Positions 2,002-20,271 of a stretch of 20,271 bases of DNA are shown one piece after another. The notes below the pieces were generated by a model that saw only the letters and a list, made by a program, of their open reading frames with translations, searched no databases and had not been told where the DNA came from. The stretch spans positions 1 to 20,271 of the IMG/VR virus record IMGVR_UViG_3300025889_001211; one strand, given 5' to 3'. This DNA comes from a virus. Positions within the stretch are counted from its first letter, which is position 1, and the number at the start of each line of letters is the position of its first letter. Position numbers and translations under genes: made by a program.

Positions 2002-2017
2002 TATAACAAAATAAGAA

Positions 2018-2051
2018 ACACACCTTTTTCGCATGAGCGGAGGGGGTGTGT
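2018..2051 (+). ncRNA. Candidate small RNA or 5' leader hairpin, 15-bp stem with AUGA loop
   Basis: The + strand can form a 15-bp stem (2018-2032 with 2037-2051) closed by the tetraloop ATGA (2033-2036). Eleven pairs are Watson-Crick and four are G-U wobbles. On the opposite strand the four wobbles become C-A mismatches, so the fold favours the rightward transcript, in agreement with the promoter ending at 2001. No T-run follows, so it is not a rightward terminator. The loop contains an ATG that opens a 24-codon ORF (2033-2107), which may or may not be translated. Confidence 0.45.
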
Positions 2052-2058
2052 ATTATAT

Positions 2059-2084
2059 AAAAAGAAAACCCACCGAATGGTGGG
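2059..2084 (-). terminator. Intrinsic terminator of the leftward structural operon
   Basis: On the - strand CCCACC-ATTC-GGTGGG (2084 to 2069) is followed by TTTTCTTTTT (2068 to 2059). It lies 48 bases past the stop of the last leftward gene (tail tube). On the + strand there is no T-run after the stem, so it acts leftward only. Confidence 0.8.
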
Positions 2085-2131
2085 CTTCCCTGTTGTATGA
2101 TAGATAAAAAATACGGGTTTCTTTGGGAGAA

Positions 2132-6239: not shown

Positions 6240-7733
6240 TTAGTATCTTGCGGTAAATATATCTAAGTTTTGTTGGATTTCTGATGGGCTTAATTTCCTA
6301 TCATAAATCAACACAGCTGCAACTTGCATATTTGAGTAACCCCAATAACCAGTTCCAACTGTAATTTGTTGGTTTTCACCAGCTCCACTTGCATCCAATG
6401 CTCTATCAGTAATGGTTTCAGTTCCATCAAAGTATCCATTTTGGGTACAATCAGCTTCAGTAATTACAAATGAATACCATTGGTTTAGATTGTATGATGC
6501 TGCTATATCAGCAACACCAGGAGATGTTAAATAAGAATATGTTCCACATGCAGTAGTATTCCATGTCAAATCTCTATATGGAGTAGATGATGTTGTTGTT
6601 CCAGTCAACAAAGTTGTCATCATAGTAGTGTGTGCTTTACTACCAGCAGTAGATTTAGCAATAATCATAAATGTATTACCACTCTGATTTAATCCAATTG
6701 GTAATCTAACATATTGGTTACTACCATTTAATTGGAAATAACCACTATCTCCTGATGTATGTGTTGGAGAGTTTACCAATGTTGCATCATTTCCATTTCC
6801 ACTCAAATCAGACCATGTAGTTCCACTTCCAGGGTAAGATGCGGCATTACCTGCATCTATGTACATTTGTAATCCACCCGATACAATACCAGTTGCTTGT
6901 TTTTCTACTACACTTAATGGTGTTGGTATAGTTGAGAATCTATATCCTTTATCAGTTCCAACATAAACCCTAAAGTCCTGAACTAATTTACCAACCGCAT
7001 CGTTTACACCATCATATCCTAAAATAGAGCAATAGTTTTCAGTTCCAAAATCACCACTAAATGTTCCAGTAGCCACCCTTGTTCCATTTACATAAATGTA
7101 TTTGTTAGTTCCACTTCTTACAAAAGCAAAATGGTAATAATTGTCTAATGTATCTGTCAAACTAAATGTAGTTGCAGAACCATTCATATAGTATCTTAAT
7201 GTAGTTCCAGTACTCCATTGTAATAATAAAGCATCTCCACCGGGTTCACCAAATATGTGTAATTGGTATGGGGGAGAGCCCCAATCAGGAGCAACAGGTG
7301 CAATATATCCTTCAACAACAAAGTCAGTATTACCCATATTGATAGATGTCCAAGGTAAAGCTCCTAAGTTCTTTTGGTTTGCCGTTACTAATGCAGTTGA
7401 ATAGCCTTCATCAACCCAATTACTTCCACTATAATTCAATACTGAAGATGATGCATATAATTCACCACTACCTGTAGATACTAAACTTACATTGCTTCCA
7501 ACTCCACTAATCAAAGAACTTACATCTTGCAATGGTTCTGCCATTCCCAAATCAGTAAACTCTGAACCTGGTACAGCAAGGAACAATGAAGATGAAAATG
7601 GGTCAAATCTGAATTGATATGATACAGATGGCGCTACTGCTTCACTATATGGATTTAATCCAATTAACTTATTATCGTAAAGTCCAAATACCTCAAAATC
7701 TCCTAAATATATTCTTTCACTTACCTCTCCCAT
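6240..7733 (-). CDS. Large adhesin with two LamG/ConA-like domains
   Basis: This 497-residue protein has an N-terminal module (MGEVSERIYLGDFEVFGLY) matching in pattern the start of the adhesin at 4425-5276. It is followed by a first LamG-like domain (from about 38 to 270, with YHFAFVRSGTNKYIYVNGTR as the core strands) and a second (about 285-497) that opens with GGLQMYIDAGNAASYPGSG and WSDLSGNGNDATL, a very typical LamG/ConA opening in Bacteroidota proteins, and closes with VAAVLIYDRKLSPSEIQQNL. Both domains are probably carbohydrate-binding beta-sandwiches displayed on the tail. The gene begins one base after the previous stop. The receptor cannot be named. Confidence 0.8.
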   Translation of the reverse strand: MGEVSERIYLGDFEVFGLYDNKLIGLNPYSEAVAPSVSYQFRFDPFSSSLFLAVPGSEFTDLGMAEPLQDVSSLISGVGSNVSLVSTGSGELYASSSVLNYSGSNWVDEGYSTALVTANQKNLGALPWTSINMGNTDFVVEGYIAPVAPDWGSPPYQLHIFGEPGGDALLLQWSTGTTLRYYMNGSATTFSLTDTLDNYYHFAFVRSGTNKYIYVNGTRVATGTFSGDFGTENYCSILGYDGVNDAVGKLVQDFRVYVGTDKGYRFSTIPTPLSVVEKQATGIVSGGLQMYIDAGNAASYPGSGTTWSDLSGNGNDATLVNSPTHTSGDSGYFQLNGSNQYVRLPIGLNQSGNTFMIIAKSTAGSKAHTTMMTTLLTGTTTSSTPYRDLTWNTTACGTYSYLTSPGVADIAASYNLNQWYSFVITEADCTQNGYFDGTETITDRALDASGAGENQQITVGTGYWGYSNMQVAAVLIYDRKLSPSEIQQNLDIFTARY

Positions 7734-8617: not shown

Positions 8618-11600
8618 TTATTGGAAATTATTTAATCCTACTAAGTACAATGAGGTTGTATCAAATGCGATGAATGTAAGAACATCCTCCGCAGTTGCTG
8701 ATGATGCAGTAAAGAACGAGCCCGATGGTTGTAAGATGTTCGGACCAAACGATACAGTTGCTCCACTTACTGATTTAACCAACATATTCACAGTTTGAGA
8801 ACCCTGAACATTCTCTGCTGTGATGTGTGTATCTCCACTTACCAATTGTAATACAAAGAAGTTTCCAGCACTCACATCCATAGATGCAGTTGTAGAAACA
8901 ATACTCATATTCACGTGATTTCCTTTGAGAGAACCTGTGATTCCTACACTACCTGTAATTTGTGCTGAACCTGAGTATGGGAATGTATCTACAGTCACCA
9001 TACTACCAGTGATTGCTGAGCCAGATACAACATAGAGTGTGTTAGGGTCTTTAGTACCCAACGCTGCGTAAGATGCTGATGTAATTGCTACCACATGCTT
9101 TACGGATGGAACACCACCATAGGTTGGGGATACATTATCTACTAATGAACCGGTGTAAGAGCCAGATGTAATAAAATAACTTCCACTTACATCTACCGAG
9201 CCCGTTACTTCAGCTTTACCAACAAATGGGAATCCACTTCCACCTCCACCAGCAGCATCAATCTCAACAGTCACAGTTCCACCACCAGCATCAGTCACAG
9301 TCACAGCACTACCTGTAAAGTTTAATGTTGATGCATCAGCGATTTCAACACTATCTTTTGCAATTGCTAAGATGGTTGTATTACCCGAAGTTCCCGAAGT
9401 TCCTCCACTACCTGCCGTTCCGTTAGTTCCATCAACACCAGAAGTACCCGATGTACCAGCAGGGCCTGTTGAACCTGTGGTTGCAGTTGAGCCAGATACG
9501 ATATATAATGTATTTGGGTCTTTTGTTCCTAATGCTGCATATGATGCTGAATCCAATGTTACAACGTGGTTTACTCTACCCACATCGGTGTATGTATCGG
9601 TAATGTTGTCCACCACCGAACCTGAGTAGGTATCCAAAGATAAAGAAATACTACCAGTTACACCTAAACTACCAGTGATTTGAGCACTACCAGTAAATGG
9701 GAAACCTGTTGCTTCATCTACAACAGAGCCGGAGATTACATATAAGGTATTTGCATCTACTGAACCCAAACCATCGTATTCCGCTTGTGTAAGGGTTACG
9801 ATATGTTCAATTCTATCTACTGATGTGTATATATCACCAATGTTATCAACTACTGAGCCAGAGAACGAACCTGTGGTGATTGTGATACTTCCACTTATGC
9901 TTGTACTACCAGTTACTTTTAATTCACCTTCAATGGTAGTCAAACCATCGTTTCTAACTGAAAGGAAATCAGTTGTTGATATATTACCTACAACTCTAAA
10001 CAATCCGGTATCAGGAGTAGTTCCTCTATTGGATACAATCCATAAACCAGCACCTTTGTTTACCGCTGGTGAACCATCAACATTTATTCTTACAACAGGA
10101 GTATTAGTTGCTTGATTTGCTTGGTCTTGAGTGAATACGATTTGTTGGTCTTTACCAACTTCAACATCTAAGCTACCAGTTAAGATAATACTACCTGTGA
10201 TTTGAGCACTACCTGTGAATGGGAATGCATCAGCCGTATTACCTGATGTGCCGGATGTACCACCACTTCCAGCAGTACCATTAGTTCCATCCACACCTGA
10301 TGTTCCAGCAGTTCCGTTTGTACCATCTACACCGGATGTACCAGCTGAACCATTGGTTCCGTCTACACCACTTGTCCCTGCTGTTCCATTTGTACCATCT
10401 ATGCCAGATGTACCAGCCGTACCATTTGTACCATCAATTCCTGAAGTACCCCCAGTACCATTAGTTCCATCTACTCCGCTTGTTCCTGCTGTTCCGTTTG
10501 TTCCGTCTATACCGGAAGTTCCATCAGTTCCTGATGTTCCACCAGTACCAGATGTACCTGATGTATTTGCATCAAATAAAGAAGAAGATGCTATCTGAGT
10601 TGGTACTCCATTAGAATCACCTACCCACAAGTATCCTTCTTGAATGTTTGGTAAGTTATTTCCAACTTGGTTAAAGATGATTCCTCTACCATTATTAGAA
10701 GAACGAGTAATAACTCCTAATGTCTGAACCGAGTTAGCAGAACCTGATGGTCTTGTTGGTGTCCATCCTCCATTTATTCCTAAATAAACAATTGTTCCAG
10801 CAGGATATAATGATGTATCTACACCAATGATTTCACCACTAATTAAGCCAGTACCCGTAGCAGAAGGTGCTAATGTAGTATCACCAGCAATTAAAGTAGC
10901 AGGTCTACGATTTGCTTGTCCTGCTCTTGCTATATATACATTTGCATTATCACCAGTTGCACCTGATACAAATAAAGGTGTACCTTTAAGGATTGATGAG
11001 GTTTCAGCGTTGTGAATGTTTTGGTGAAGTGTTTTAACCCAGTCTAAAGAAAGATTACCAGCTCCATCCGTAGTTACAAACATATCAGTTTGGCCATCAG
11101 CTGTTGGATAGTTTAGTCCACTTGCCGTTAATTCGTTTACTACTCTAACTGAACCATAAAGAGTTTGAACATCATCTGCCGCATCACCAAATTGGTTAGA
11201 GCCAGATGAATAGATTACTGATGATGTTTCAATTTGAACTAATAATTTAGAAGCTGTGATGTCTCCTGTTACATTAAGTGAACCATTAAATAATTGGTCA
11301 CCATTAAATGTATTACTACCAGTAGTAGCGTAAGAACCAGTCTTAGCAGTTAAATTACTGATGTTTGTAGTGTTGGTTGATATATTACCCTCATCAGTTG
11401 TTAATCTGCTTTCTAATGAAGAAGAAAGGGCATCTACGGATGCAGTTGTTGCATACCCACCAGTAACGGATGTAAGAGAATCAATTTGAGTTTGGAGTGA
11501 GCCTGTCTCCGTCTCTAAACTATCTAATCTTAAATCAGTTGATTGTGTATATGCGTTAAATGATGCGGTTGTTACCAATGATGAGGTATCAACGGATACA

Positions 11601-11941
11601 GCAGCTGCATTTACATTTATGGTAGCTATACCACCTCCAAATGAGGCTGTGATTGCATCACCTACAAAGTTTAATGTAGTTGCTACACCCAATGTTGTAC
11701 CTTCTTCTTGCACTACTACACCACTACCGCTGGCTACTAAACCATCAATTTGGTCTTGTAGGTTTATGATAGATGAGGAGAATGAAGATGAATCTACATT
11801 ATAACTACCTTCATCCACCAATGAATCAATCATATCGGAGTTGAAGTCCCTTAGTCTTTCAGCGGTTATAAACCCTGTATTATTATTGGGAAAATTACTT
11901 TGATTTTCCGCTTGTAATTGGTCTTTTGTTAATTGGCTCAT
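8618..11941 (-). CDS. Collagen-like, repeat-rich long tail fibre
   Basis: This 1107-residue protein is the largest in the window. The N-terminal part (about 1-60) is helical, followed by coiled-coil-like heptads up to about 200 (SLETETGSLQTQIDSL, ISTNTTNISNLTAKTG) typical of trimeric fibres. Residues 462-567 are 35 consecutive Gly-X-Y triplets; a shorter collagen-like block lies near 820-850. Four FPFTGSAQITGS-like modules and three VDN...NTLYVVSG modules (each about 50-60 residues) form the shaft, and the last 80 residues are a non-repetitive beta-rich cap (NFFVLQLVSGDTHITAEN through LYLVGLNNFQ). It is placed with adhesin genes downstream, so it is likely the main tail fibre or spike shaft. 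No peptidase or lyase motif was found. Confidence 0.85.
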   Translation of the reverse strand: MSQLTKDQLQAENQSNFPNNNTGFITAERLRDFNSDMIDSLVDEGSYNVDSSSFSSSIINLQDQIDGLVASGSGVVVQEEGTTLGVATTLNFVGDAITASFGGGIATINVNAAAVSVDTSSLVTTASFNAYTQSTDLRLDSLETETGSLQTQIDSLTSVTGGYATTASVDALSSSLESRLTTDEGNISTNTTNISNLTAKTGSYATTGSNTFNGDQLFNGSLNVTGDITASKLLVQIETSSVIYSSGSNQFGDAADDVQTLYGSVRVVNELTASGLNYPTADGQTDMFVTTDGAGNLSLDWVKTLHQNIHNAETSSILKGTPLFVSGATGDNANVYIARAGQANRRPATLIAGDTTLAPSATGTGLISGEIIGVDTSLYPAGTIVYLGINGGWTPTRPSGSANSVQTLGVITRSSNNGRGIIFNQVGNNLPNIQEGYLWVGDSNGVPTQIASSSLFDANTSGTSGTGGTSGTDGTSGIDGTNGTAGTSGVDGTNGTGGTSGIDGTNGTAGTSGIDGTNGTAGTSGVDGTNGSAGTSGVDGTNGTAGTSGVDGTNGTAGSGGTSGTSGNTADAFPFTGSAQITGSIILTGSLDVEVGKDQQIVFTQDQANQATNTPVVRINVDGSPAVNKGAGLWIVSNRGTTPDTGLFRVVGNISTTDFLSVRNDGLTTIEGELKVTGSTSISGSITITTGSFSGSVVDNIGDIYTSVDRIEHIVTLTQAEYDGLGSVDANTLYVISGSVVDEATGFPFTGSAQITGSLGVTGSISLSLDTYSGSVVDNITDTYTDVGRVNHVVTLDSASYAALGTKDPNTLYIVSGSTATTGSTGPAGTSGTSGVDGTNGTAGSGGTSGTSGNTTILAIAKDSVEIADASTLNFTGSAVTVTDAGGGTVTVEIDAAGGGGSGFPFVGKAEVTGSVDVSGSYFITSGSYTGSLVDNVSPTYGGVPSVKHVVAITSASYAALGTKDPNTLYVVSGSAITGSMVTVDTFPYSGSAQITGSVGITGSLKGNHVNMSIVSTTASMDVSAGNFFVLQLVSGDTHITAENVQGSQTVNMLVKSVSGATVSFGPNILQPSGSFFTASSATAEDVLTFIAFDTTSLYLVGLNNFQ
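10241..10558 (-). repeat. Collagen-like coding repeat, seven 36-nt units
   Basis: The block encodes 35 Gly-X-Y triplets. Seven units of GTS-G(I/V)D-GTN-G(T/S)(A/G) follow one another, framed by GTS/GTG/GTD triplets. No Pro, Lys or Arg occurs in it, so hydroxyproline- or salt-bridge-stabilised collagen is unlikely. Codons differ between units at many third positions although the amino acids repeat almost exactly. Confidence 0.9.
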
Positions 11942-12421: not shown

Positions 12422-13188
12422 TTATGTATTGGAGTTCATAGCTTCTTTGTGCATTAACCCCTGTAATTGATTGTAATCAGCTTGGTATGCAAGGTATAAC
12501 AAACACTTCTCTAATGGTAAGGAGAGAACCTCATCAAAGTTTAAGATGTCATTGTTGGAAAGTTGGACAATAGCTCCATAGCCTCCCCATTTCTTTCCAA
12601 AATTGACTTGATGTTGGGAGGAAGCTTCTCCGCCTTCAAAGATTTCAGGATATCGTTCACTAAGTCCTCCGATAAAAGAAAAAAAAAGTGTAATGCCCCA
12701 AAGTGGACATCCATAGGCACATCTAAAAACTTATCCTCATCCATCACACCTTTGTATGCTTCTATGTTATACTGAGTTAAAACCTTCTTTGTAATAGGTC
12801 TATATAGAATAGACATAATCTTCTTCCAATTATCGTTGATAGAGATTGTATCATACTTTGTGATGTCCAAATATGCACCATATGCAATCTTAGATAGGTT
12901 TGGTTCAAATCCATATTCCTTATCCCCAATCTTTATTATCCTTTGTAGAGGTAAATCAGTCTTACCAATAAACTCCATCAAATCCACTTTAATTTCACCA
13001 TACATATCAGATGGTAATTGCCCAATGTAATCCGTTGGAACTTTGCAGAAATGGTGTAGTAAACAAGCCATATAGCCCGTTTCTTCTTCTCCATAGATTT
13101 CCAAATCCTTTTGGAAACGGAGGTATTCTCTCAAAGTGATTGCTGACCAATCCTTTGGAACTGTTATCTTTAATTCTTTCGTTGCCAT
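12422..13188 (-). CDS. Tail assembly chaperone-like fusion made by -1 ribosomal frameshifting
   Basis: The zero frame (12541-13188) and a second open frame without a start codon join at the T-run 12687-12679. A -1 slip after codon 170 continues with TCT (12679-12677) and runs 85 codons to TAA at 12424-12422, giving about 255 residues. The extension has the features SERYPEIFEGG, NFGKKWGGYGAI and FDEVLSLPLEKCLLYLAYQA, which resemble the C-terminal parts of tail assembly chaperones (the T part of G-GT pairs), as I recall them from Bacteroidota phages. It contains no in-frame ATG before its last 15 codons, so frameshifting is the simplest way to express it. Known G-GT proteins bind the tape measure protein during tail assembly. 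Confidence 0.7.
12541..13188 (-). CDS. Tail assembly chaperone-like protein, zero-frame (G-type) product
   Basis: This 215-residue, mostly helical protein starts MATKELKITVPKDWSAITLR and contains LPLQRIIKIGDKEYGFEPNL (about 79-98), a conserved-looking segment I recall from uncultured Bacteroidota phages. Codons 167-171 read CAC TTT TTT TTT CTT, a poly-U slip site, after which the zero frame continues another 45 residues to a stop at 12541. The two products share their first 170 residues. The start overlaps the FkbM methyltransferase gene by 19 bases. The chaperone role comes from the frameshift architecture and the extension, not from a domain recognised in this part. A tape measure gene, the usual partner, is not in the window. 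Confidence 0.75.
   Translation of the reverse strand: MATKELKITVPKDWSAITLREYLRFQKDLEIYGEEETGYMACLLHHFCKVPTDYIGQLPSDMYGEIKVDLMEFIGKTDLPLQRIIKIGDKEYGFEPNLSKIAYGAYLDITKYDTISINDNWKKIMSILYRPITKKVLTQYNIEAYKGVMDEDKFLDVPMDVHFGALHFFFLLSEDLVNDILKSLKAEKLPPNIKSILERNGEAMELLSNFPTMTS
12679..12688 (-). other. Programmed -1 frameshift slippery site
   Basis: On the - strand the sequence is C then nine T (12688 to 12679), followed by C and four more T. In the reading frame the heptamer T-TTT-TTT fits the X-XXY-YYZ rule for -1 slippage at codons 169-170. The -1 frame stays open for 85 codons beyond it. Confidence 0.7.
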
Positions 13189-13826
13189 AGTTTTACAAAG
13201 TGTGAATCCACACCATTACCTTCAGTATAGATTTCGGTGTGTGTTTTGTTAATGTGTCCAAATAGTAAATCTTGCTTCTCCTTACCTAAAAAGTTGTGAA
13301 ACTCACCAACTATGTACTGGATAGTAGATAGTTCAGCATGCATCAAAAAAGGATACTCAGCTCCTTCACAATCTATCTTTAGTAAGCCAACCGCTCTACC
13401 TTTAACCAAATCCTCAAAAGAGATAGTAGATACTTCTTCGTATTCTCCTCTCCATCCGTGGTTGTTATCCGTATTTAGGTATTGGGTTGTTCCAAAGTTG
13501 CCTGAAAGGGTATCACCCCCATCGTTATAATAGTTTTGTAATTGTAGGGTATCATCTGATGAGTGATATACTGCTCTTTGTATAGGAGTGATTGGTGTAT
13601 TCTTTTGGATTTGCTCACAATTGTAGGTGGATGGCTCTACCATTTCCCAATTATCGGAGATGGATGACCAAGCTCTATAAAACCCTCCTACATTTGCTCC
13701 TATGTCCAACACCAAATCTTCTTTAGAAATCTTTAGAAGATGTATAGGGTAATGCCTACATTCTGATGTTACTATATCTAACCAATTCTCTGGCTGATTA
13801 CTTGCTACTAATTTATCTACTTTCAT
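13170..13826 (-). CDS. FkbM-family SAM-dependent methyltransferase
   Basis: This 218-residue protein shows the class I methyltransferase motifs of the FkbM family: motif I VLDIGANVGGFY (39-50) for S-adenosylmethionine binding, an acidic residue after the second strand (EMVEPS, 61-66), AVYHSSDDTLQL (85-96), and the FkbM hallmark LLKIDCEGAEYPFL (148-161) followed by GEFHNF (174-179). FkbM enzymes usually O-methylate sugars or small molecules. Its place between packaging genes and tail genes, coupled by TGATG to the upstream coiled-coil gene, suggests modification of a virion glycan or a host-surface glycan, for example to block superinfection. The substrate cannot be read from sequence. There is no signal peptide, so it acts in the cytoplasm. 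Confidence 0.85.
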   Translation of the reverse strand: MKVDKLVASNQPENWLDIVTSECRHYPIHLLKISKEDLVLDIGANVGGFYRAWSSISDNWEMVEPSTYNCEQIQKNTPITPIQRAVYHSSDDTLQLQNYYNDGGDTLSGNFGTTQYLNTDNNHGWRGEYEEVSTISFEDLVKGRAVGLLKIDCEGAEYPFLMHAELSTIQYIVGEFHNFLGKEKQDLLFGHINKTHTEIYTEGNGVDSHFVKLWQRKN

Positions 13827-14137
13827 CAGTTTATATCCAATTTAGATTTTTGTTGTGGTTTGTATTCACTTACTCTATACTGCTCTGGATTAGTCAATTC
13901 TATGTTTTCAACAACGATTTCCGCTTGAATAGTGTTTAGGTTATCCAAAGTTACTTGTTGCTTCATATCCTCTAATTTTTTATGTAGAGAGTTTCTTTGA
14001 TGAACCACAGCCAATAAGTTTGATTTCAACTCTTCACTTTGTTGAACCATCTTATTCAGCTCTTTCTCCAAATGAGATGCCCATTGGGCTAAATCTATGT
14101 AATCCTTTTCGGTTACCTCAACTCCGTTTATCTTCAT
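13826..14137 (-). CDS. Hypothetical coiled-coil protein downstream of the terminase
   Basis: This 103-residue protein begins MKINGVEVTEKDYIDLAQWA. Residues about 20-65 form a long heptad-patterned helix (LEKELNKMVQQSEELKSNL, then HKKLEDMKQQVTLDNL). The C-terminal third is polar and probably disordered (VSEYKPQQKSKLDIN). It starts 3 bases after the terminase stop, and its stop overlaps the methyltransferase start (TGATG). It has no recognised domain. A structural adaptor is possible. Confidence 0.7.
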   Translation of the reverse strand: MKINGVEVTEKDYIDLAQWASHLEKELNKMVQQSEELKSNLLAVVHQRNSLHKKLEDMKQQVTLDNLNTIQAEIVVENIELTNPEQYRVSEYKPQQKSKLDIN

Positions 14138-14140
14138 ATC

Positions 14141-15325
14141 TTATCTAATTGAAATGGCATAAGTGCCATAGTTTTTCTTTTTGTTTGATAGCATCCAACT
14201 TCCTACATACCTACAAGCATCAATTGCGTGGTTGTTGGTATCTATGGGCTCGTTCAAAAGAGAATTGTTTTTATCTTTTTTCCACACATAGGAATAGAAC
14301 TCATCAATTAGATTCTTTGAGTTCTTTGTTAAATGTATTTTGTGTTGCTTTAGTGTATCTATTCCAGCCATAATACTATCAGGTCCTTTGAGGGCTGGTT
14401 TAATGTTGATTCCACCACTACGGAAGATTTCTTCTATAAGTCTTGGGTCAGATGAGTCCGCAATTACTTCCTTTCTGCCATAAGCGTTGTATGCTCCTCT
14501 AATAAAGTTTGAGATTTGATTTGAGAGTAGGTTTTTCTCATAACATACCTCATCAAAGTAAATACCCTCATCACCTTTCCATAGGGATACCAATGCGGTT
14601 GGGTCATTTGTAAAGCCAAAATCACAGCCATACCCCAATAGCTCACAGCCCTCAGGTATGTAATCTACCACATTTACATTATCAAACACCAATCCTTCAA
14701 TCATACCTTCCAAACCTAATCCATAGGTTTTCCAATAGGATGGTGATGTATGCTCTAATCTTTCAATCTCCTGTATTATCTCATCCTCTAAGAAGGGATT
14801 ATCCTTATAGGTGGAGATAATCCTCTCTGCTTCAGGGTGTGTAAGCATTTGGGTATAAATCCAATGGTTTGTTGGGAACGATGGGTTGTATGCTATTATA
14901 GTTTTGTTTGAAGTTCTTATGAATAGCTGGAACATATCATCCCAGTCTAACTCATTTGCTTCATCAACAAAAAGATAATCTCTTTTAGTTCCCTTTCTTC
15001 GTTCACCATCTTGCACCGATAAGAACTCTATGGTTGAGCCATTATGGAATGTGTATTGGTTTTCTGAAGCATACCATTGGTTTTCGTTCCACAAGTCCAA
15101 CTCCTTCATTATATTACGAAAGTCTCTTAGAGTTGAAATGCGTAGGGATGGGAAGGATTTTCTTACGATGGATATAGATGTTCCAGCTTCTTCTAATGCT
15201 TTTACTACCAAATACTGAACGGCTGAATAGGATTTACCACTACGAGTTCCTCCTTGTAGTATTACTATTCTCCCTCCGTTTAATATATCAGTAAAAGTCT
15301 TACTGGTCTTTATTTTTACTTCCAT
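14141..15325 (-). CDS. terL: Terminase large subunit (DNA packaging ATPase and nuclease)
   Basis: This 394-residue protein starts at ATG 15325, which has GGGAGA eight bases upstream; a TTG at 15352 would extend it by nine residues. The N-terminal ATPase shows Walker A GGTRSGKS (25-32) and Walker B YLFVDEANE (117-125, with the D-E pair at 121-122), followed by a coupling-motif-like IIAYNPS. The C-terminal RNase H-like nuclease shows GCDFGFTNDPTA (catalytic Asp near 235), IADSSDPR (Asp near 290) and NHAIDACRY (Asp near 369). This is the PBSX/Terminase_3-like type. With the small subunit it cuts concatemeric DNA and pumps it into proheads. The gene overlaps the small subunit gene by 26 bases. 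All key residues appear intact. Confidence 0.95.
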   Translation of the reverse strand: MEVKIKTSKTFTDILNGGRIVILQGGTRSGKSYSAVQYLVVKALEEAGTSISIVRKSFPSLRISTLRDFRNIMKELDLWNENQWYASENQYTFHNGSTIEFLSVQDGERRKGTKRDYLFVDEANELDWDDMFQLFIRTSNKTIIAYNPSFPTNHWIYTQMLTHPEAERIISTYKDNPFLEDEIIQEIERLEHTSPSYWKTYGLGLEGMIEGLVFDNVNVVDYIPEGCELLGYGCDFGFTNDPTALVSLWKGDEGIYFDEVCYEKNLLSNQISNFIRGAYNAYGRKEVIADSSDPRLIEEIFRSGGINIKPALKGPDSIMAGIDTLKQHKIHLTKNSKNLIDEFYSYVWKKDKNNSLLNEPIDTNNHAIDACRYVGSWMLSNKKKNYGTYAISIR

Positions 15326-15620
15326 CTTTATTCTCCCTTTGTATAACTTCAATTTGTAGCTTTTCTACTCTTGCATTTACTTCCGCATCTACCTTCATAT
15401 CTACGCTCTTTAGCTTTGGAACTACATACTCCAATAACTTTAAATAAATCTCAGCTGCTTTGATTGGATTTTCTTTTCTTATCTTATCTATATCTTCGGT
15501 AATATTGTCCAATCCTTTATTAGCCAATCGGGCAAGCGTGAGTTTGGCTTGTTCCGTAGAACGATTGATAGCTCCTTTTGGTCTACCACCACTTAACTTA
15601 TGTCCTTTTTCAAACGGCAT
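15300..15620 (-). CDS. terS: Small terminase subunit-like DNA-binding protein
   Basis: This 106-residue protein begins MPFEKGHKLSGGRPKGAINR, a GGRPKG-type basic N-terminus typical of small terminase-like phage proteins, followed by helical segments (STEQAKLTLARLANKGLDNI, then IYLKLLEYVVPKLKS) and a Lys/Asp-rich tail. It precedes and overlaps the large subunit gene, the classic order. The small subunit recognises the packaging site and regulates the large subunit ATPase. The 75-base AT-rich stretch upstream (15621-15695) is one of the longest gaps in the packed operon and might hold an extra promoter, although no TAnnTTTG match is present. Confidence 0.8.
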   Translation of the reverse strand: MPFEKGHKLSGGRPKGAINRSTEQAKLTLARLANKGLDNITEDIDKIRKENPIKAAEIYLKLLEYVVPKLKSVDMKVDAEVNARVEKLQIEVIQRENKDGSKNKDQ

Positions 15621-15695
15621 TTTATATTATCCTATAGTATTTTAATATATAACAACAATTTGTCTATTAGTATGTGAGTAATATATATAGATATA

Positions 15696-15923
15696 TTATA
15701 GTAGTGTTCTCCACTCTTCTTTTACACCTTCCTTACTAAAGATTTCTTTAGTAAATAGGTTTAGTATTTCTCCATCTGATTCTTCATATACACCTGTCTC
15801 TTTTATTACCATAAATTGTGTGTATACTATAGAAGGTAAACTAACTTTATTTGTATTGTCCAAATACAAAGCAAATTCTATAAACTTCTTCTGTCTCTCA
15901 TTGATTTGCTTCATCTTGTCCAT
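15696..15923 (-). CDS. Hypothetical small protein
   Basis: This 75-residue protein (MDKMKQINERQKKFIEFALY at the start) is predicted helical at the N-terminus with a mixed C-terminal part (TKEIFSKEGVKEEWRTLL). It overlaps the preceding NUMOD1 gene by 26 bases, or 17 if Met4 is the start. No domain is recognised and there is no membrane segment. The tight overlap argues that it is a real gene rather than a chance ORF. Confidence 0.6.
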   Translation of the reverse strand: MDKMKQINERQKKFIEFALYLDNTNKVSLPSIVYTQFMVIKETGVYEESDGEILNLFTKEIFSKEGVKEEWRTLL

Positions 15924-16371
15924 AAATTACAATTCGGGGTGGGTCAGCAAACTGCCACTTATATCCTAAATAAGTTTGAGCTCTTCCCCTTAATACACCA
16001 ACCAATGTCTGTCTTTGAGTTTTACCCAAATCCATTGCATCTCCAGCTGCATCTACATTTTCCCAAGTTTCTATAATCTCATCAGTCTCAGGGTTTATCT
16101 GATGTATTCTTCTTTCTCTATTTGTTTTAGAGCCAATCAAAGCACCATGCTTTGAGTTATATCTACTTCTTTCAGTTCGTAAGTAATGCTCCTCTCCTTC
16201 AAAAACCTGCATCCATCCTTCTCCATAATATTTAATTGCTAAATCTATGATGTATTCAGGTCCTTGAGATAAGATGTAATCTAACTTTTCTTTATTAACC
16301 TTTTGTATTTCTGCAACTTGTTCTTCAGTAAGTTTTGTTTTAGGTCTACCTACTCTTCTACTCTTCATCAT
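15898..16371 (-). CDS. NUMOD1-domain DNA-binding protein without a visible nuclease
   Basis: This 157-residue protein has a basic N-terminus (MMKSRRVGRPKTKLTEEQVA), a helical middle containing IIDLAIKYYGEGWMQVFEGE, a basic linker (NSKHGALIGSKTNRERR) and a NUMOD1-type module at about 89-141 that starts IHQINPETDEIIETWENV and ends YLGYKWQF. NUMOD1 modules bind DNA in homing endonucleases; no HNH or GIY-YIG core is present here. The start overlaps the sigma-like gene by 14 bases. It may be a trimmed homing element or a regulator. It is a different protein from the rightward NUMOD gene at 1369-1968, though built from the same module. Confidence 0.7.
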   Translation of the reverse strand: MMKSRRVGRPKTKLTEEQVAEIQKVNKEKLDYILSQGPEYIIDLAIKYYGEGWMQVFEGEEHYLRTERSRYNSKHGALIGSKTNRERRIHQINPETDEIIETWENVDAAGDAMDLGKTQRQTLVGVLRGRAQTYLGYKWQFADPPRIVIYGQDEANQ

Positions 16372-16891
16372 TATTGGTGAATGGATTATCTAATTTGTTT
16401 TTTAAGTGTTCTCTTATTTTTCTCACGTTTAAGAATGTAGTGCTTTTTGATACTCCTATCTTTGATGATAAGCTTTCTAATGTATCTGATGAAAACCAAT
16501 ACAAACTTGCTAATTTTGCGGATGCCCATACTTTTGTTCCTTCTAATCGTTTTAATTCATCTATAAGTTCATCGTATGTCTTTTGTATCCTTAAATCTTC
16601 TTCTACATTATATTCTTCTTCCGTAGTTTCAACATCTGAACCTTCAACAAACCTATTCTTTATTTTAACTCTATTTATCCACCTTGTCTTTATGAATGCT
16701 CTACAATACTGAAGATTGAATGTATCTTCATACCAAATTGATTCATTTCCTTTCTCTAATAGATAAACATAGAGTTCAGAGAGTAAATCATCACCTTCAT
16801 CAACATCCTTTGTTATATTAAACGCAACTTGCTCAAGCCATGTTCTATGTTTGAGGTGTAATAGTTCTACTCTTTTGGTATTCTCATCCAT
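16358..16891 (-). CDS. Sigma factor-like protein (ECF-like)
   Basis: This 177-residue protein has the layout of small sigma factors: a region 2-like helix set at about 15-75 (HRTWLEQVAFNITKDVDEGD, DLLSELYVYLLEKG, then FIKTRWINRVK), an acidic linker (ETTEEEYNVEED) and a C-terminal helix-turn-helix at about 135-165 (DTLESLSSKIGVSKSTTFLN) like region 4. Phage-encoded sigma-like proteins redirect host RNA polymerase to later promoters or act in packaging-gene control. It sits early in the leftward operon and overlaps neighbouring genes by 8 and 14 bases. The promoters visible in the window look like host-type promoters, so its own targets, if any, are not identified. It could also be a plain HTH regulator. 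Confidence 0.7.
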   Translation of the reverse strand: MDENTKRVELLHLKHRTWLEQVAFNITKDVDEGDDLLSELYVYLLEKGNESIWYEDTFNLQYCRAFIKTRWINRVKIKNRFVEGSDVETTEEEYNVEEDLRIQKTYDELIDELKRLEGTKVWASAKLASLYWFSSDTLESLSSKIGVSKSTTFLNVRKIREHLKNKLDNPFTNNDEE

Positions 16892-17123
16892 TTACTTTTT
16901 GGACAAAGTCTTTGATTGTGTTGTATGCACGCAACCAATGTTTACCAGACGATGCGCAGGTGCAAGGTTGAGGTTCTTTAGTATTACTAATCTTTAAGTG
17001 TAAATACCAAACGGTCTTTGCTAAATCGGTAGGGATTCTATCCTTAACTACCTTTACAACATTCAATGCTTCTTCCCATTCATTTTCCAATAATGGGGAA
17101 TAATCAATTTTCTTTTTTCCCAT
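16884..17123 (-). CDS. Small protein with a CTC-SSGKHW motif
   Basis: This 79-residue protein (MGKKKIDYSPLLENEWEEAL at the start) carries PCTCASSGKHWLRAYNTIKD near residues 53-72. The CxC followed by SSGKxW looks conserved among Bacteroidota phage proteins that I recall, but no function is established. It is mostly helical and soluble. It starts 6 bases after the 57-residue Cys protein and overlaps the sigma-like gene by 8 bases (TGA within), so it is likely co-translated with it and might work with it. Confidence 0.65.
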   Translation of the reverse strand: MGKKKIDYSPLLENEWEEALNVVKVVKDRIPTDLAKTVWYLHLKISNTKEPQPCTCASSGKHWLRAYNTIKDFVQKVNG

Positions 17124-17129
17124 AATAAC

Positions 17130-17303
17130 TTAAAATAATTTTATATCTTTTTTACAACCAAAGAAATCATTTATCTTTCTTTGTCTTTCTGAACAGCCAC
17201 AATCCTCAAATCCTAAAGAATTAGCAACCCTCATTGCAATACGCTTACCAAATCCTATAGTAGAATAGTGTATGATTCGTTCTAACCAATCACCTACACA
17301 CAT
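17130..17303 (-). CDS. 57-residue Cys-containing phage protein
   Basis: This short ORF encodes 57 residues, starting MCVGDWLERIIHYSTIGFGK and including GFEDCGCSERQRKINDFFGC. The pattern of an N-terminal amphipathic helix followed by CGC-x-x-R-x-x-K-(I/L)-N resembles small proteins I recall near terminase genes of Bacteroidota phages. The ATG overlaps the stop of the HNH gene as TAATG, and the stop lies 6 bases before the next gene, so it fills the gap exactly. Function is unknown; the cysteines might bind metal. Confidence 0.7.
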   Translation of the reverse strand: MCVGDWLERIIHYSTIGFGKRIAMRVANSLGFEDCGCSERQRKINDFFGCKKDIKLF

Positions 17304-17689
17304 TACTTTTTCTTCTTTAGTTTATCTACCCTGTGGTATTTTAGGATGTTTTCTTGCCATGTCAATAGTTGGAGGTTTTCCAATCGGTTATCCTTCTTAT
17401 TACTATTGATATGGTCAACCACATATCCCTCTGGGATTTCTCCTTTAAAGCTTTCCCAAACTACTCTATGAGCTCTGAAATAGGTTTTGTTCTTATGACC
17501 TGGCTCATTATACATCCCAACATTTATATAACCTGATGGGTGCTTATCCCAAAGTTTTAATTTGTAAAACTCACAATTTGGATTTGTTCTGGGGGATAGT
17601 CTTGTTGAATAAAAGTTTCCTTTATTGCTTACCCAATAATCAGGGAACTCTTCTATATTTCTTAATTCTTCTTTTATCATATCATACAT
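17303..17689 (-). CDS. HNH homing endonuclease with NUMOD4
   Basis: This 128-residue protein has an N-terminal NUMOD4 module (IEEFPDYWVSNKGNFYST, 12-29) for DNA contact and an HNH_3-type core at about 74-113: HRVVWESFKGEIPEGYVVDH (74-93), then INSNKKDNRLENLQLLTW. His93, Asn95 and Asn101 are in place, so it is probably active. Free-standing HNH genes of this type spread by cutting alleles without the insert. It is inserted between the 45-residue protein and small regulatory genes and is preceded by a 140-nt non-coding leader with a strong hairpin (17702-17721). No intron splice signals were recognised. Start 17689 is chosen; Met4 (17680) is possible. Confidence 0.9.
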   Translation of the reverse strand: MYDMIKEELRNIEEFPDYWVSNKGNFYSTRLSPRTNPNCEFYKLKLWDKHPSGYINVGMYNEPGHKNKTYFRAHRVVWESFKGEIPEGYVVDHINSNKKDNRLENLQLLTWQENILKYHRVDKLKKKK

Positions 17690-17701
17690 TTTTTAGGTAT
17701 T

Positions 17702-17721
17702 GGGGGAGGTTTCCCTCCCCC
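17702..17721 (-). promoter_or_regulatory. 8-bp hairpin upstream of the HNH gene
   Basis: The leftward RNA reads GGGGGAGG, GAAA loop, CCTCCCCC (17721 to 17702), a perfect 8-bp stem that ends 12 bases before ATG 17689. The 5' arm contains a strong SD-like GGGGGAGG that is paired in the stem. It is not a terminator, as no U-run follows. Hairpins that limit translation are known for phage homing endonuclease genes such as those of T4. Confidence 0.6.
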
Positions 17722-17829
17722 GAGTAAAAATCAAAATATACCTATGGGTGTAGGGAAAATGGCAATAAACCCAAACACCTACTATAAATAGATAATAATT
17801 TTGGAAACGTCATTCCTGAAAGAAAAAAC

Positions 17830-17967
17830 TTACTTTTTTTTATTTTTTTCTGCTAAAATCTTTTCCATTACTTCTTCAAGCTCTTTTTCAAGCTTTACTT
17901 TAGAAAGGTATTGTTCATAGGATTCTTTCTTTTCCTTGCTCCAACCTGTTGTATCTAGCTTATTCAT
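17830..17967 (-). CDS. 45-residue Lys/Glu-rich helical protein
   Basis: The protein starts at ATG 17967, coupled by ATGA to the stop of the replication gene; an upstream start at 18015 would overlap that gene by 52 bases and is less likely. The sequence begins MNKLDTTGWSKEKKESYEQY and continues as one amphipathic helix (LSKVKLEKELEEVMEKILAE) ending in KNKKK. It is not recognised. It could be a small replication accessory from its position. After it the operon has a 140-base non-coding stretch before the HNH gene. Confidence 0.6.
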   Translation of the reverse strand: MNKLDTTGWSKEKKESYEQYLSKVKLEKELEEVMEKILAEKNKKK

Positions 17968-18656
17968 AATTGATTTGTTTTTATATTGTAAATTGTGTTG
18001 ATTTGATTTAACCACTTTTTTTCTGTGTAATCATCAAATCCCATAGCATCTTTGATTGAATCCCATCCTAAATCCTTAAAATCTTCTACAGCTCTATTAT
18101 AAGATGTCATATCAGTATCTACATCAATTAGTTTATCAAGTATTTTTTCTACTAATTTACCTTTTACTTTTACTTCTTCTTGAATTATATCTTGAACTGT
18201 ATCTTGTTCTTGACCTTTATCTCTAGGGGTTAGGATAGTGTTAGTATACTGTATGGATACACTATCTAAATAATCTGTATTTTGTTTAGAAAATGAATAA
18301 TTACCACCAGCATCTTTGAAAACAATTCCATTGTCTTCTAACAATTTGATTACAGATAAAATTGGTTTAGATGTTTTACTTAAAAAATCTTTTCCATTTT
18401 GAAACTCACAAAACTTTTTAATAAACCATTTATCAGCATCAATAATTGTAATTCTATCCCCAATAACCTCCAGTAATTCACTTTCTGTTATATCTGTATT
18501 ACAATCAAAGTTTAATCTCCTCATAGATTTTTTCCAAATCCCAGCATGATTACAGTCATCTAACAACCAAATCCATACTAATTTATAATCATTAGAAAGG
18601 TTTATAAACCAATCATCTTTCCACTTTTCAGCATCGGTATATCTTTTCTTTGCCAT
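17964..18656 (-). CDS. Replication initiator-like protein (winged-helix replisome organiser type)
   Basis: This 230-residue protein is the first gene of the leftward operon. The start is ATG 18656; a TTG at 18680 lies inside the promoter and is rejected. The N-terminus MAKKRYTDAEKWKDDWFINL followed by LVWIWLLDDCNHAGIWKKSM resembles phage replication initiators (replisome organisers) with an N-terminal winged helix, where the KLLWIYLL-x-x-CDxAGIW pattern is frequent. A polar linker (about 130-165) leads to a C-terminal helical part (EKILDKLIDVDTDMTSYNRA, then YTEKKWLNQINTIYNIKTNQ), which may correspond to a loader-binding region. It would bind the phage origin and recruit the helicase. No iterated origin repeats were recognised inside the gene. 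Confidence 0.7.
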   Translation of the reverse strand: MAKKRYTDAEKWKDDWFINLSNDYKLVWIWLLDDCNHAGIWKKSMRRLNFDCNTDITESELLEVIGDRITIIDADKWFIKKFCEFQNGKDFLSKTSKPILSVIKLLEDNGIVFKDAGGNYSFSKQNTDYLDSVSIQYTNTILTPRDKGQEQDTVQDIIQEEVKVKGKLVEKILDKLIDVDTDMTSYNRAVEDFKDLGWDSIKDAMGFDDYTEKKWLNQINTIYNIKTNQL

Positions 18657-18677
18657 ATTATTTAATTTTAATTTATA

Positions 18678-18709
18678 CAAATATACGAAAAAAAGTTGAG
18701 ATACACAAC
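18678..18709 (-). promoter_or_regulatory. Leftward promoter of the 16.5-kb operon
   Basis: On the - strand GTTG (18709-18706), a 20-nt spacer and TATATTTG (18685-18678) match the Bacteroidota promoter with a one-base -33 variation. TTTTTTTCG precedes the -7 element as in the rightward promoters. It is the only clear leftward promoter in the window and lies 21 bases before the replication gene. Confidence 0.8.
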
Positions 18710-18721
18710 ATATACTCTATA

Positions 18722-18764
18722 GATAGTCTATCCATACTCTTATCATACACTTATATAAGTATAT
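18722..18764. promoter_or_regulatory. Two operator-like inverted repeats in the divergent region
   Basis: GATAGtCTATC (18722-18732) is a 5-bp inverted repeat with one central base. ACTTATATAAGT (18749-18760) is a perfect 12-bp palindrome that extends to 20 bp (18745-18764) with one mismatched pair. Both lie upstream of the leftward promoter and of the rightward promoter at 18872. The rest of the 18657-18931 gap is AT-rich, with no ORF seen. A regulator-binding role is plausible but unproven. Confidence 0.4.
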
Positions 18765-18871
18765 AGTAAAAATCCCAAACCACAAAAATCAGCAAAAGTT
18801 TTTTAACTTTTTTTCTTTGTGAGTATAAAATCTCAATTTTTAATCAAATTATACTTTTTTTTAGTAAATGG

Positions 18872-18903
18872 CTTGGTAGTTCAGGAATTATTTCGTATAT
18901 TAG
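18872..18903 (+). promoter_or_regulatory. Rightward promoter of the 30-residue membrane protein gene
   Basis: CTTG (18872-18875), a 20-nt spacer and TATATTAG (18896-18903) match the promoter pattern with one change in the -7 element. TTTCG precedes it. The first ATG is 28 bases further on. Confidence 0.7.
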
Positions 18904-18931
18904 TACTGTAATTAAAAGTTAAACCTAAAGT

Positions 18932-19024
18932 ATGATTGAGTATTTATCCCATCCAGAAAACCGAGTTACTGTATTTGCAGTAGTAATGTTGAGTTATTTA
19001 ATTTATAAAATGATTAAAAAATAA
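18932..19024 (+). CDS. 30-residue single-pass membrane microprotein
   Basis: The ORF encodes MIEYLSHPEN, then RVTVFAVVML, then SYLIYKMIKK. Residues 12-25 are hydrophobic (VTVFAVVMLSYLIY) and could span a membrane, with a basic C-terminus that would stay inside the cell. It has a dedicated promoter 28 bases upstream, and its TAA is immediately followed by the next promoter's TTTG, so the ORF fits its space well. Possible roles include an early host-membrane effector or a holin-like regulator, but nothing in sequence decides this. Very short length is the main doubt. Confidence 0.55.
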   Translation: MIEYLSHPENRVTVFAVVMLSYLIYKMIKK

Positions 19025-19025
19025 T
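19004..19025. repeat. 22-nt AT-rich repeat, copy 2
   Basis: Identical to 58-79. It codes for YKMIKK and the stop of the 30-residue membrane protein, and its last base begins the -33 TTTG of the next promoter. Confidence 0.5.
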
Positions 19026-19056
19026 TTGGATATATCAAAATAATTTCGTATATTTG
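19025..19056 (+). promoter_or_regulatory. Rightward promoter, best consensus match
   Basis: TTTG (19025-19028), a 20-nt spacer and TATATTTG (19049-19056), with TTTCG just before the -7 element. It drives the 61-residue gene at 19082 and the structured region after it. Confidence 0.85.
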
Positions 19057-19081
19057 TATAACAATTAAAAATTAAATCAAA

Positions 19082-19267
19082 ATGGCAAATCAAATCTCAA
19101 AAGAAAAATTAGTAGAGTATCTCAATGAGCAGGTAGAACAATACCATCACTCTACAAAAGATGTTATTCATAGTGCTTCACATCAACTAGCAATTGAAGC
19201 TACATACTCAACATATAATTCTTTACGAACTTTAATTGAGAATGGTGTGTTTGATGAACAACGATAG
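19082..19267 (+). CDS. Hypothetical 61-residue protein with structured 3' region
   Basis: The protein begins MANQISKEKLVEYLNEQVEQ and continues with HHSTKDVIHSASHQLAIEAT, then a Tyr/Ser-rich helix and a C-terminus ending IENGVFDEQR. It is predicted all-helical and slightly acidic, with no cysteines, membrane segment or known domain. It has its own promoter and a 25-base leader, and its last codons already form the 5' arm of an RNA hairpin (19261-19292). Small proteins with their own strong promoter in phages are often early host-takeover factors; this is context only. Confidence 0.7.
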   Translation: MANQISKEKLVEYLNEQVEQYHHSTKDVIHSASHQLAIEATYSTYNSLRTLIENGVFDEQR

Positions 19268-19380
19268 GTTTTACTGACCATTTTCCTATCGTATCGGAGG
19301 AGGGGAACAAAGTTTTAGGTTTTTGTCAATTGGTTATGTCAGTTCTCCTTCCTCCACCCTTTACCTAAGCGAACCGGGTA
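19261..19380 (+). ncRNA. Candidate structured RNA element downstream of the 61-residue gene
   Basis: Three stems are visible in the rightward RNA. H1: ACGATAGG (19261-19268) with CCTATCGT (19285-19292), 8 bp. H2: GGAGGAGGGGAAC (19296-19308) with GTTCTCCTTCCTCC (19342-19355), 13 bp with one bulge and two G-U pairs. H3: TTACC (19361-19365) with GGTAA (19377-19381). The H1 loop ACTGAC (19273-19278) can pair with GTCAGT (19338-19343), and the H2 loop TTAGGT (19315-19320) with ACCTAA (19363-19368), giving possible pseudoknots. The promoter upstream and the terminator at 19414 are on the same strand. No known RNA family was recognised. Confidence 0.5.
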
Positions 19381-19413
19381 AGTGTTTGTTAGTTATTTTG
19401 TTTTCCAAGGATT

Positions 19414-19442
19414 AGGAGGGTTTTACCCTCCTTTTCTTTTTT
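19414..19442 (+). terminator. Intrinsic terminator of the rightward unit
   Basis: AGGAGGG (19414-19420), loop TTTTA and CCCTCCT (19426-19432) form a 7-bp stem followed by a T-rich run (19432-19442). It ends the transcript from the 19025-19056 promoter. The stem also encodes the last residues of the leftward gene ending at 19423. Confidence 0.85.
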
Positions 19443-19695
19443 CCAAAAAATCTATCTTCGTTGTAAGTTCTGCTACTTTGGTTGAAAGGTCTAAGATAGT
19501 TTTTCTCATCTCATCCTTTTCTTTAGATGCCTGCTCTAATAGGGCTTCTAACTTTGCTATTCTATCTCTACAATCGTATCGGTATTGGTATTCATCTTCT
19601 CTTTTTTTTTCTGCCCTCTTTTCATAAAAACGAAAAGCGGCTGCTGAACCCAACACCGTAACTGCCGTTGCTAATACTGTGTAGATACTTTCCAT
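19423..19695 (-). CDS. Small membrane-anchored coiled-coil protein
   Basis: This 90-residue protein begins MESIYTVLATAVTVLGSAAA: residues about 4-22 are a single hydrophobic helix. A basic stretch (YEKRAEKKRED) and a long coiled coil follow at about 42-86 (DRIAKLEALLEQASKEKDEM, then LSTKVAELTTKIDFLEKRK). A membrane anchor plus coiled coil fits small phage envelope proteins of the spanin or holin-accessory type, but no lysis enzyme lies nearby, so this is only a possibility. The last codons (GGA GGG TAA) overlap the rightward terminator hairpin. It starts 3 bases after the preceding stop. Confidence 0.65.
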   Translation of the reverse strand: MESIYTVLATAVTVLGSAAAFRFYEKRAEKKREDEYQYRYDCRDRIAKLEALLEQASKEKDEMRKTILDLSTKVAELTTKIDFLEKRKGG

Positions 19696-19698
19696 AGT

Positions 19699-19998
19699 TT
19701 ATTCTGAAATAGGAACACAATTTGGAACTTCTCTACCGTCCAACATCTTTGTTCCGATTGCTTCATATCCTTCCCAACAAGCGTCTTCCAATCCTTCAGC
19801 AAATAGATAAATACCTTCGTATTTCTTTGCTTCAGATAACTTAGAAGCAATCTTACCTTGCGTAGACATATTCTCTCTAAACTTTGAGTAGCAAATTGCT
19901 AATGCTTGCTCCTGTGGGTATTCATTACCGATTTCTGACATACATCTTCCGATGTAATCATCTTCTCTTTCTCCTGATTTCTTTTGAGGTATTGGCAT
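19699..19998 (-). CDS. Small protein with RCM...YPQEQALAICYS and VPNCVP motifs
   Basis: This 99-residue protein has two short motifs common in phage structural or head-associated proteins: an N-terminal PIPQKKSGEREDDYIGRCMS with NEYPQEQALAICYSKF (about 3-41), and a C-terminal YEAIGTKMLDGREVPNCVPI (about 78-97), where the G-x-K-M-x-(D/N)-G-(R/K)-x-VPNCVP tail recurs in prohead or portal-linked proteins. The middle (YEGIYLFAEGLEDACWEGYE) is less familiar. It contains no enzyme signature. The combination suggests a head-assembly accessory, but the family's role is not established to my knowledge. Confidence 0.65.
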   Translation of the reverse strand: MPIPQKKSGEREDDYIGRCMSEIGNEYPQEQALAICYSKFRENMSTQGKIASKLSEAKKYEGIYLFAEGLEDACWEGYEAIGTKMLDGREVPNCVPISE

Positions 19999-20000
19999 CG

Positions 20001-20255
20001 TTAAATAATATTATAGGTTGTTCCGTTGTATTCCACCTTTTCAATTCTTCCAATTGGAAATACTCTAAATCCACTTCTACTTACATCGTAAAGAATAATA
20101 TATCCATTAGATGTTCCTGAGAATCCATCTACCCAATATTTTAATCCACGCATAGCTTTGTTACCAGGTCCAAATACGGAATATACTTCTTCTCCTCTTA
20201 AAGTTCTACGAGGATGACCAGGTGTTCTACCTTCAGTTTGTCCCCATATCTTCAT
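20001..20255 (-). CDS. Hypothetical small beta-rich protein
   Basis: This 84-residue protein begins MKIWGQTEGRTPGHPRRTLR and has a C-terminal part of short strands (GYIILYDVSRSGFRVFPIGR, then VEYNGTTYNII) reminiscent of small SH3- or WYL-like beta domains, though not enough to name a family. It is basic at the N-terminus. It is 2 bases upstream of the next leftward gene and is probably co-transcribed with 19699-19998 and 19423-19695 from a promoter outside the window. Only 16 bases precede it here, so the start could lie further upstream if the ORF continues, although ATG 20255 looks complete. Confidence 0.6.
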   Translation of the reverse strand: MKIWGQTEGRTPGHPRRTLRGEEVYSVFGPGNKAMRGLKYWVDGFSGTSNGYIILYDVSRSGFRVFPIGRIEKVEYNGTTYNII

Positions 20256-20271
20256 AATCTCATATTGATTA

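Follow-up and report, generated by a model that had tools for sequence, protein, structure and literature searches.

Moron-type insertions are units with their own promoter and terminator and a variable content that occupy a fixed slot between phage gene blocks. H-type pseudoknots are known in phage mRNAs and in riboswitches, as exemplified by T-even gene 32 and preQ1-I. Small RNAs encoded by phages have been reviewed (PMC12197685), and a category of small RNAs derived from 3' UTRs has been defined in Bacteroides thetaiotaomicron (PMC7366714). A literature search returned reviews on phage sRNAs and on 3'-end sRNAs, with no listed title on the locus described here and none dealing with a regulatory RNA of a Bacteroidota phage; such RNAs are, in our judgement, hardly charted.

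Here, we report the analysis of a structured RNA encoded in a virus record of 20,271 bases (the window, that is, the whole stretch of DNA analysed), most genes of which are oriented leftward. With a confidence that falls just short of an even chance, we are inclined to read it as the product of a small phage RNA locus, made here as the 3' part of a short mRNA; the RNA itself would be the selected product and would serve as a regulatory RNA. The best matches of the terminase are to phages of Bacteroides, Phocaeicola and Parabacteroides, at 36-38% identity; given these matches and the presence of promoters of the form TTTG-N20-TAnnTTTG, the host probably belongs to the Bacteroidota. Among the leftward products is a protein of 1107 amino acids (8618-11941, minus strand) with GTSG/GTNGTAGTSG repeats, noted by eye, that is likely to be a tail or fibre protein.

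The locus is a rightward unit enclosed by two leftward genes, 17964-18680 and 19423-19695, in which the promoter is followed by a short ORF, about 150 bases free of any substantial plus-strand ORF, and a terminator. Its outer features are as follows.

19025..19056, plus strand: Bacteroidota-type promoter, TTTG-N20-TATATTTG (from the sequence; consensus match).
19082..19267, plus strand: ORF of 61 amino acids, belonging to no family, on the 5' side of the transcript (from the ORF list).
19414..19442, plus strand: intrinsic terminator, stem 19414-19421/19425-19432 followed by a T-run (from the sequence and the predicted fold).
19423..19695, minus strand: convergent holin/spanin-like gene of 90 amino acids, which marks the slot in relatives (PHROG match and homologues).

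The Bacteroidota consensus places TAnnTTTG at -7 and TTTG at about -33 (PMC7366714). The promoter that had been proposed at 19025 conforms to this housekeeping arrangement over 19025-19056, with TTTG at 19025-19028, a spacer of 20 nt and TATATTTG at 19049-19056. An exact TTCGTATATTTGTA occurs at only three sites in the window, 1990 on the plus strand, 18676 on the minus strand and 19045 on the plus strand, and the plus strand of 19058-19442 holds no internal match to the promoter motif found at 19045. Just upstream of the rightward unit, between tandem promoters, lies a tiny hydrophobic frame of 30 codons by eye (18932-19024, plus strand); in the relative L139, another such frame, of about 26 codons by eye (about 597-518, minus strand), likewise lies between tandem promoters. 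The site at 1990 belongs to a second rightward orphan promoter (1981-2095, plus strand); downstream of it come a hairpin of 15 bp, several of its pairs being G-U, and a terminator-like hairpin; the fold of 2010-2095 has a z of -4.9. The relative L137 keeps the terminator-like hairpin of that region, and there an ORF appears to reach it in the stretch read.

Searched against Pfam and PHROG, the 61-residue protein gave nothing better than E 0.007, and it has no match in PADLOC. It is encoded in two further contigs, each of which matches the window without a difference along 481 bases. Its UAG stop falls within the 5' arm of the first hairpin (H1, below). Read-through of this stop found no support on inspection by eye: the frame ends after 16 codons, and a 1-nt indel alters it in the diverged relative L030. 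The convergent 90-residue protein matches PHROG 2658 ('hol-like chemotaxis') at E 1.1e-8 and, weakly, an Rz-like spanin at E 0.05. The absence of ORFs after 19267, noted in the sequence-only reading of this DNA, holds except for an 81-residue GTG frame (19382-19627) that runs antisense to the spanin-like gene.

The terminator combines a G+C-rich stem of eight pairs, five of them G-C, with the tail TTTCTTTTTT, and 19414-19432 is the one terminator-like site in 18600-20271. Its 3' half overlaps the leftward spanin-like gene at that gene's last codons (19423-19442, encoding KRKGG; KEKGK in the relative L101), and since the 3' arm and the T-run are also coding, a single stretch serves both strands. 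Such an overlap with the end of the opposite gene counts in favour of a plain 3' UTR, whose hairpins and pseudoknot would only block 3'-5' exonucleases and, together with the terminator, insulate the rightward unit from the convergent leftward operon. This interpretation is nearly as likely as a regulatory RNA and is its close rival, a serious possibility to which we assign somewhat more than one chance in three. The lack of an internal promoter of the same type and the position of the ORF stop inside H1 also speak for it; for termination, on the other hand, the terminator alone would be enough.

Between the ORF and the terminator, two hairpins are predicted.

19261..19292, plus strand: hairpin H1, 8 bp (19261-19268/19285-19292), with a 16-nt loop that contains ACCAUUUU (from the folds of the window and of L030).
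19296..19355, plus strand: hairpin H2, 13 bp (19296-19308/19342-19355), with one bulged U and a 33-nt loop (from the folds of the window and of L030).

The two hairpins and the terminator stem, all drawn in the sequence-only reading, are present in the sequence and in the predicted minimum free energy (MFE) fold of 19255-19442, where a third hairpin and a closing helix accompany them. The assignment of this fold to the plus transcript agrees with the orientation of the promoter and the terminator. Of the two G-U pairs in H2 that had been cited for that strand, the MFE form has one. With the terminator included, the fold has a z of -3.07, and none of 200 shuffles folds as well; the window core without the terminator is only modestly better than shuffles (z -1.64), and the RNA of L030 minus its terminator reaches -4.04. 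The closing helix below H1 and H2 (GAACAA/UUGUUU in the window, ACAAC/GUUGU in L030) appears in both MFE folds; we do not claim it, because it occupies different alignment columns in the two sequences.

A scan with the alignment of the spanin-like protein yielded 309 relatives, and the 80 top-ranking ones were retained. Among the loci collected, blastn and nhmmer identified one diverged copy of the RNA, at L030:2693-2876 on the minus strand; L030 and L101 are the same record, and L138 is the same contig as L030.

19258..19442, plus strand: conserved RNA module, from the start of the homology with L030/L101 to the terminator (blastn block from 19258, L101 2876).

DNA homology between the window and L101 extends, with gaps, over 12763-17980, is then lost except for a 104-base match in the promoter region, and resumes at 19258, three bases 5' of the base of H1. 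In L030, the RNA has an equivalent convergent position, preceded by two small ORFs (91 and 62 amino acids), neither of which matches the 61-residue protein of the window; in L101, it comes after a 3.7-kb block of rightward ORFs, one of them related to DnaC-like helicase loaders. The homology pattern and the unmatched ORFs together indicate that the RNA is kept while the genes that precede it differ, which makes it probably a working part. Protection of the mRNA of the 61-residue gene in particular, a purpose initially suggested beside a regulatory RNA and a sponge, is unlikely, given that the RNA of L030 follows unrelated ORFs. A plain 3' UTR would accept any upstream gene, so that the ORFs could differ between phages, and the position of the RNA after the 3.7-kb rightward block counts in its favour. 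The same arrangement argues against the idea that the RNA is the antitoxin of a type III-like toxin-antitoxin pair with the 61-residue protein as toxin. A short ORF and a pseudoknotted RNA do share one transcript; an RNA antitoxin would be tied to one toxin, and here L030 keeps the RNA without that ORF, its own ORFs being unlike the 61-residue protein, while the RNA lies downstream of the ORF and PADLOC gives no match. We regard such a pair as barely credible, the least probable of the readings considered.

Also in L101, a promoter-like block of about 84-91% identity is repeated before rightward genes (5053-5126, 6587-6636 and 6726-6775). A stretch that looked structured by eye (L101 6870-7170) was discarded, its fold being indistinguishable in energy from those of shuffled sequences (z 0.6 and 0.1).

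Beyond this pair of sequences, the searches for relatives of the RNA were negative. At E < 0.1, model R1 recovered only the window and L030 in one set of 84 sources, nothing in sets of 27 and 14, and a single match in 16 records, L138. Neither blastn against phages and plasmids (no credible match) nor the scanned genome contigs produced a relative of the RNA. The known RNA sequences fall into only two types, the other two copies being the identical contigs. At the gathering score, the 4227 Rfam families gave no matches in the window, L101, L139, L010, L137, L018, L019 or L011, in line with the initial failure to recognise a known RNA family; below threshold there were only chance-like matches at E <= 5, the best on 18880-19460 having E 0.45.

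Between the window and L030, the RNA is identical in 132 of 180 aligned columns (73%). This is barely above the identity at 4-fold sites of 11 shared genes (292/428, 68%; 5/17 in the adjacent spanin-like gene), so sequence conservation alone shows no constraint. It is on this closeness to silent-site identity, and on loop complementarities that are expected by chance, that the case for no functional RNA beyond the terminator would be built: an AU-rich intergenic region of recent shared descent with chance hairpins. The paired positions argue against it, since far more of them are preserved than when the structure is slid or substitutions are placed at random; on the hand alignment, 27 of the 28 scorable pairs of H1, H2 and the two pseudoknot helices S1 and S2 combined are kept, compared with 18.7 expected when substitutions fall at random. 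We therefore consider the absence of a functional RNA very improbable.

Pairs in H1, H2, the H-type pseudoknot and the terminator were counted on the MAFFT alignment A7 of the window with its one diverged homologue. The sequence-only reading would have been refuted by a lack of covariation, and covariation is observed: eight of all 39 pairs change on both sides in that single homologue without loss of pairing, whereas sliding the structure by 1-3 columns leaves 0-2 such pairs. In the terminator stem, 8 of 8 pairs are kept, four with compensatory changes, despite half of it being coding on the other strand. All seven scorable pairs of H1 are kept; one has changed in a compensatory way and one G-C pair has become G-U. 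H2 keeps 10 of 11 scorable pairs on the hand alignment, none of them compensatory; in the raw MAFFT alignment, 9 of its 13 pairs are kept and 4 look broken, and shifting a 2-nt gap mends all but one pair and leaves two pairs facing a gap.

A further element lies between H2 and the terminator.

19363..19389, plus strand: H-type pseudoknot of 27 bases, S1 19363-19366/19376-19379 and S2 19369-19374/19384-19389.

S1 reads ACCU/GGGU in the window and AGGU/GCCU in L030 (4/4 pairs kept, two compensatory), and S2 reads GCGAAC/GUUUGU and GUAAAC/GUUUAC, respectively (6/6 kept, one compensatory). All ten pairs are thus retained, three by compensation, and no gap of the MAFFT alignment falls inside the pseudoknot. 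Two interleaved helices with pair conservation in both define an H-type pseudoknot, here across two sequences and in a structure chosen after both had been seen; its loops of 2, 1 and 4 nt would be compatible with a compact form. When the observed substitutions were placed at random in 10,000 trials, the pairing of S1 and S2 was matched in 1.0% and the covariation in 0.9% (p_paired 0.010, p_cov 0.009). Because the pseudoknot had been picked with both sequences in view, the search was repeated on simulated relatives; in 7 of 400, it came upon an H-type pseudoknot with 10 bp or more, three or more of them compensatory. An unguided scan for conserved helices found nine of at least 6 bp compared with 2.3 under the null (p 0.0075); neither its total nor its maximal covariation exceeded the null (p 0.59 and 0.49).

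The 5-bp third stem drawn in the sequence-only reading is better read as S1 seen alone, one half of a pseudoknot the second helix of which was missed; this would account for its keeping four of five pairs in L030, two of them compensatory. The two pseudoknots proposed from loop-to-flank complementarity fared differently. ACTGAC/GTCAGT was rejected, as four of six pairs are broken in L030. TTAGGT/ACCTAA can form there only with a 1-nt loop shift and three G-U pairs; it is ambiguous and competes with the better-supported pseudoknot. Six-base matches of this kind are to be expected by chance: shuffling produces one for the H1 loop in 26% of cases, one for the H2 loop in 53% and one for each loop in 15%. 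The structured RNA is real, and its fold matches the original drawing only in part.

Pairing of TTAGGT with ACCTAA and formation of S1 are mutually exclusive, and the RNA might switch from one to the other. The observation that 19363-19369 can pair in two ways, in S1 or with the H2 loop, and the distance of 24 nt from the pseudoknot to the terminator stem might suggest an attenuator controlled by a ligand or protein, in which the pseudoknot or H2 would oppose the terminator and read-through would generate antisense RNA over the spanin-like, 99-residue and KTSC-like genes. The MFE and centroid folds lack an anti-terminator pairing to the terminator stem, the 3'-end position is unusual for a riboswitch, and Rfam yields no match; we consider an attenuator improbable. 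As regards a plain 3' UTR, a compact, compensated pseudoknot exceeds what insulation needs.

The same slot is used in two further relatives, L010 and L075. Both the 99-residue and the spanin-like gene are common to them and the window, and so is a relative of the leftward gene that comes next. In L010:683-788 and L075:835-951, both on the minus strand, a promoter of the same type precedes an RNA of 106 and 117 nt, respectively, with hairpins and a strong terminator in the same convergent slot. Neither RNA contains a substantial ORF, a frame of 12 codons being all that was noted by eye in L075; their stretches fold with z of -3.7 and -3.5, and they are themselves phage sRNA candidates. It speaks against a plain 3' UTR that these slots hold no substantial ORF to protect. 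Among 59 distinct spanin loci scanned with a strict promoter pattern, the arrangement was found only in L010 (as its duplicate L022) and L075, and not on the other strand; the scan dropped duplicates and loci with <300 bases downstream, included L030, whose promoter TATATTAG misses the pattern, and left out the window's own kind. L011 and L054, which have the 99-residue and spanin-like genes, did not show the promoter-RNA-terminator arrangement; a 298-base stretch is 92% identical between them (L011 about 6475-6770 and L054:4894-5191), and a wider 857 bases are 78% alike.

The L010 and L075 RNAs showed no clear sequence homology to that of the window. The hexamer CAUUUU lies in a hairpin loop in all four of the window, L030, L010 and L075, in the window in the H1 loop. 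When the L010 and L075 RNAs were shuffled, a 6-mer common to the H1 loops of the window and L030 landed in a hairpin loop in 3.3% and 2.3% of cases, respectively; as CAUUUU was noticed after the fact, we treat it as a lead, not a result.

In the favoured reading, that of a regulatory RNA, transcription would start at about 19061, as inferred from the promoter, and end at about 19440. The RNA would form the 3' part of a brief message from the convergent slot beside the end of the leftward holin/spanin-like gene and would be stabilised by the pseudoknot and the terminator hairpin. It would then act as a regulator, probably trans-acting or protein-binding, by way of its exposed loops, above all that of H1 with ACCAUUUU. 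What singles out the RNA as the presumptive selected product is that the feature common to all occupants of the slot is a terminated, hairpin-bearing RNA rather than a protein. We counted for this reading the retention of the RNA without the ORFs in L030, the eight compensatory pairs, the ten of ten pseudoknot pairs, the slot in L010 and L075, CAUUUU and the fold z; and against it the two sequence types, the identity close to that of 4-fold sites, the lack of compensation in H2, the unguided scan, the core z of -1.64, the absence of a significant target, the post hoc status of CAUUUU and the lack of an internal promoter of the 19045 type. Taken as a phage small or 3'-UTR RNA, without a choice between the two, the molecule has moderate support from the two sequence types.

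A bolder version of the regulatory reading, which we hold to be a long shot, is that this is a new family of Bacteroidota phage RNAs, in which a U-rich CAUUUU loop complementary to AAAAUG would bind translation starts of the host or phage and shift translation, the coding genes that ride along being secondary. AAAAUG places the start codon in an A-rich setting, which might suit those Bacteroidota mRNAs that lack a Shine-Dalgarno sequence. In a comparison of the H1 loop with the start sites of the phage genes, TerL came first in the window, second in L101 and first over the 12 shared genes, with a family-wise p of 0.23; against phage start regions, its mean pairing energy was no better than that of shuffled loops, and a general anti-start role inside the phage is unsupported.

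If the RNA is real, it would be a defined, compact, covarying pseudoknot RNA in a slot also used by relatives, and phages may retain a 3' RNA while swapping the genes in front of it. The locus can be set beside the systems described at the outset. Like 3' UTR-derived sRNAs, the RNA is at the 3' end of an mRNA and uses its intrinsic terminator, a sharing of the parental terminator that is read here from the sequence; unlike them, it is phage-borne and would contain a compact H-type pseudoknot. As in phage-encoded small RNAs, a short phage transcript with a promoter and a terminator lies outside the structural genes, whereas no sequence or Rfam relation to those described was found. With the pseudoknots of T-even gene 32 and preQ1-I it shares two interleaved short helices and loops of 1-4 nt and differs in its position at the 3' end, resemblance in sequence being judged by Rfam only. 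A parallel in layout is with moron-type insertions, which the locus resembles in its own promoter and terminator, its variable content and its fixed slot; here, unlike in morons, the RNA on the terminator side stays while the coding content changes, and in two relatives the slot holds no substantial ORF.
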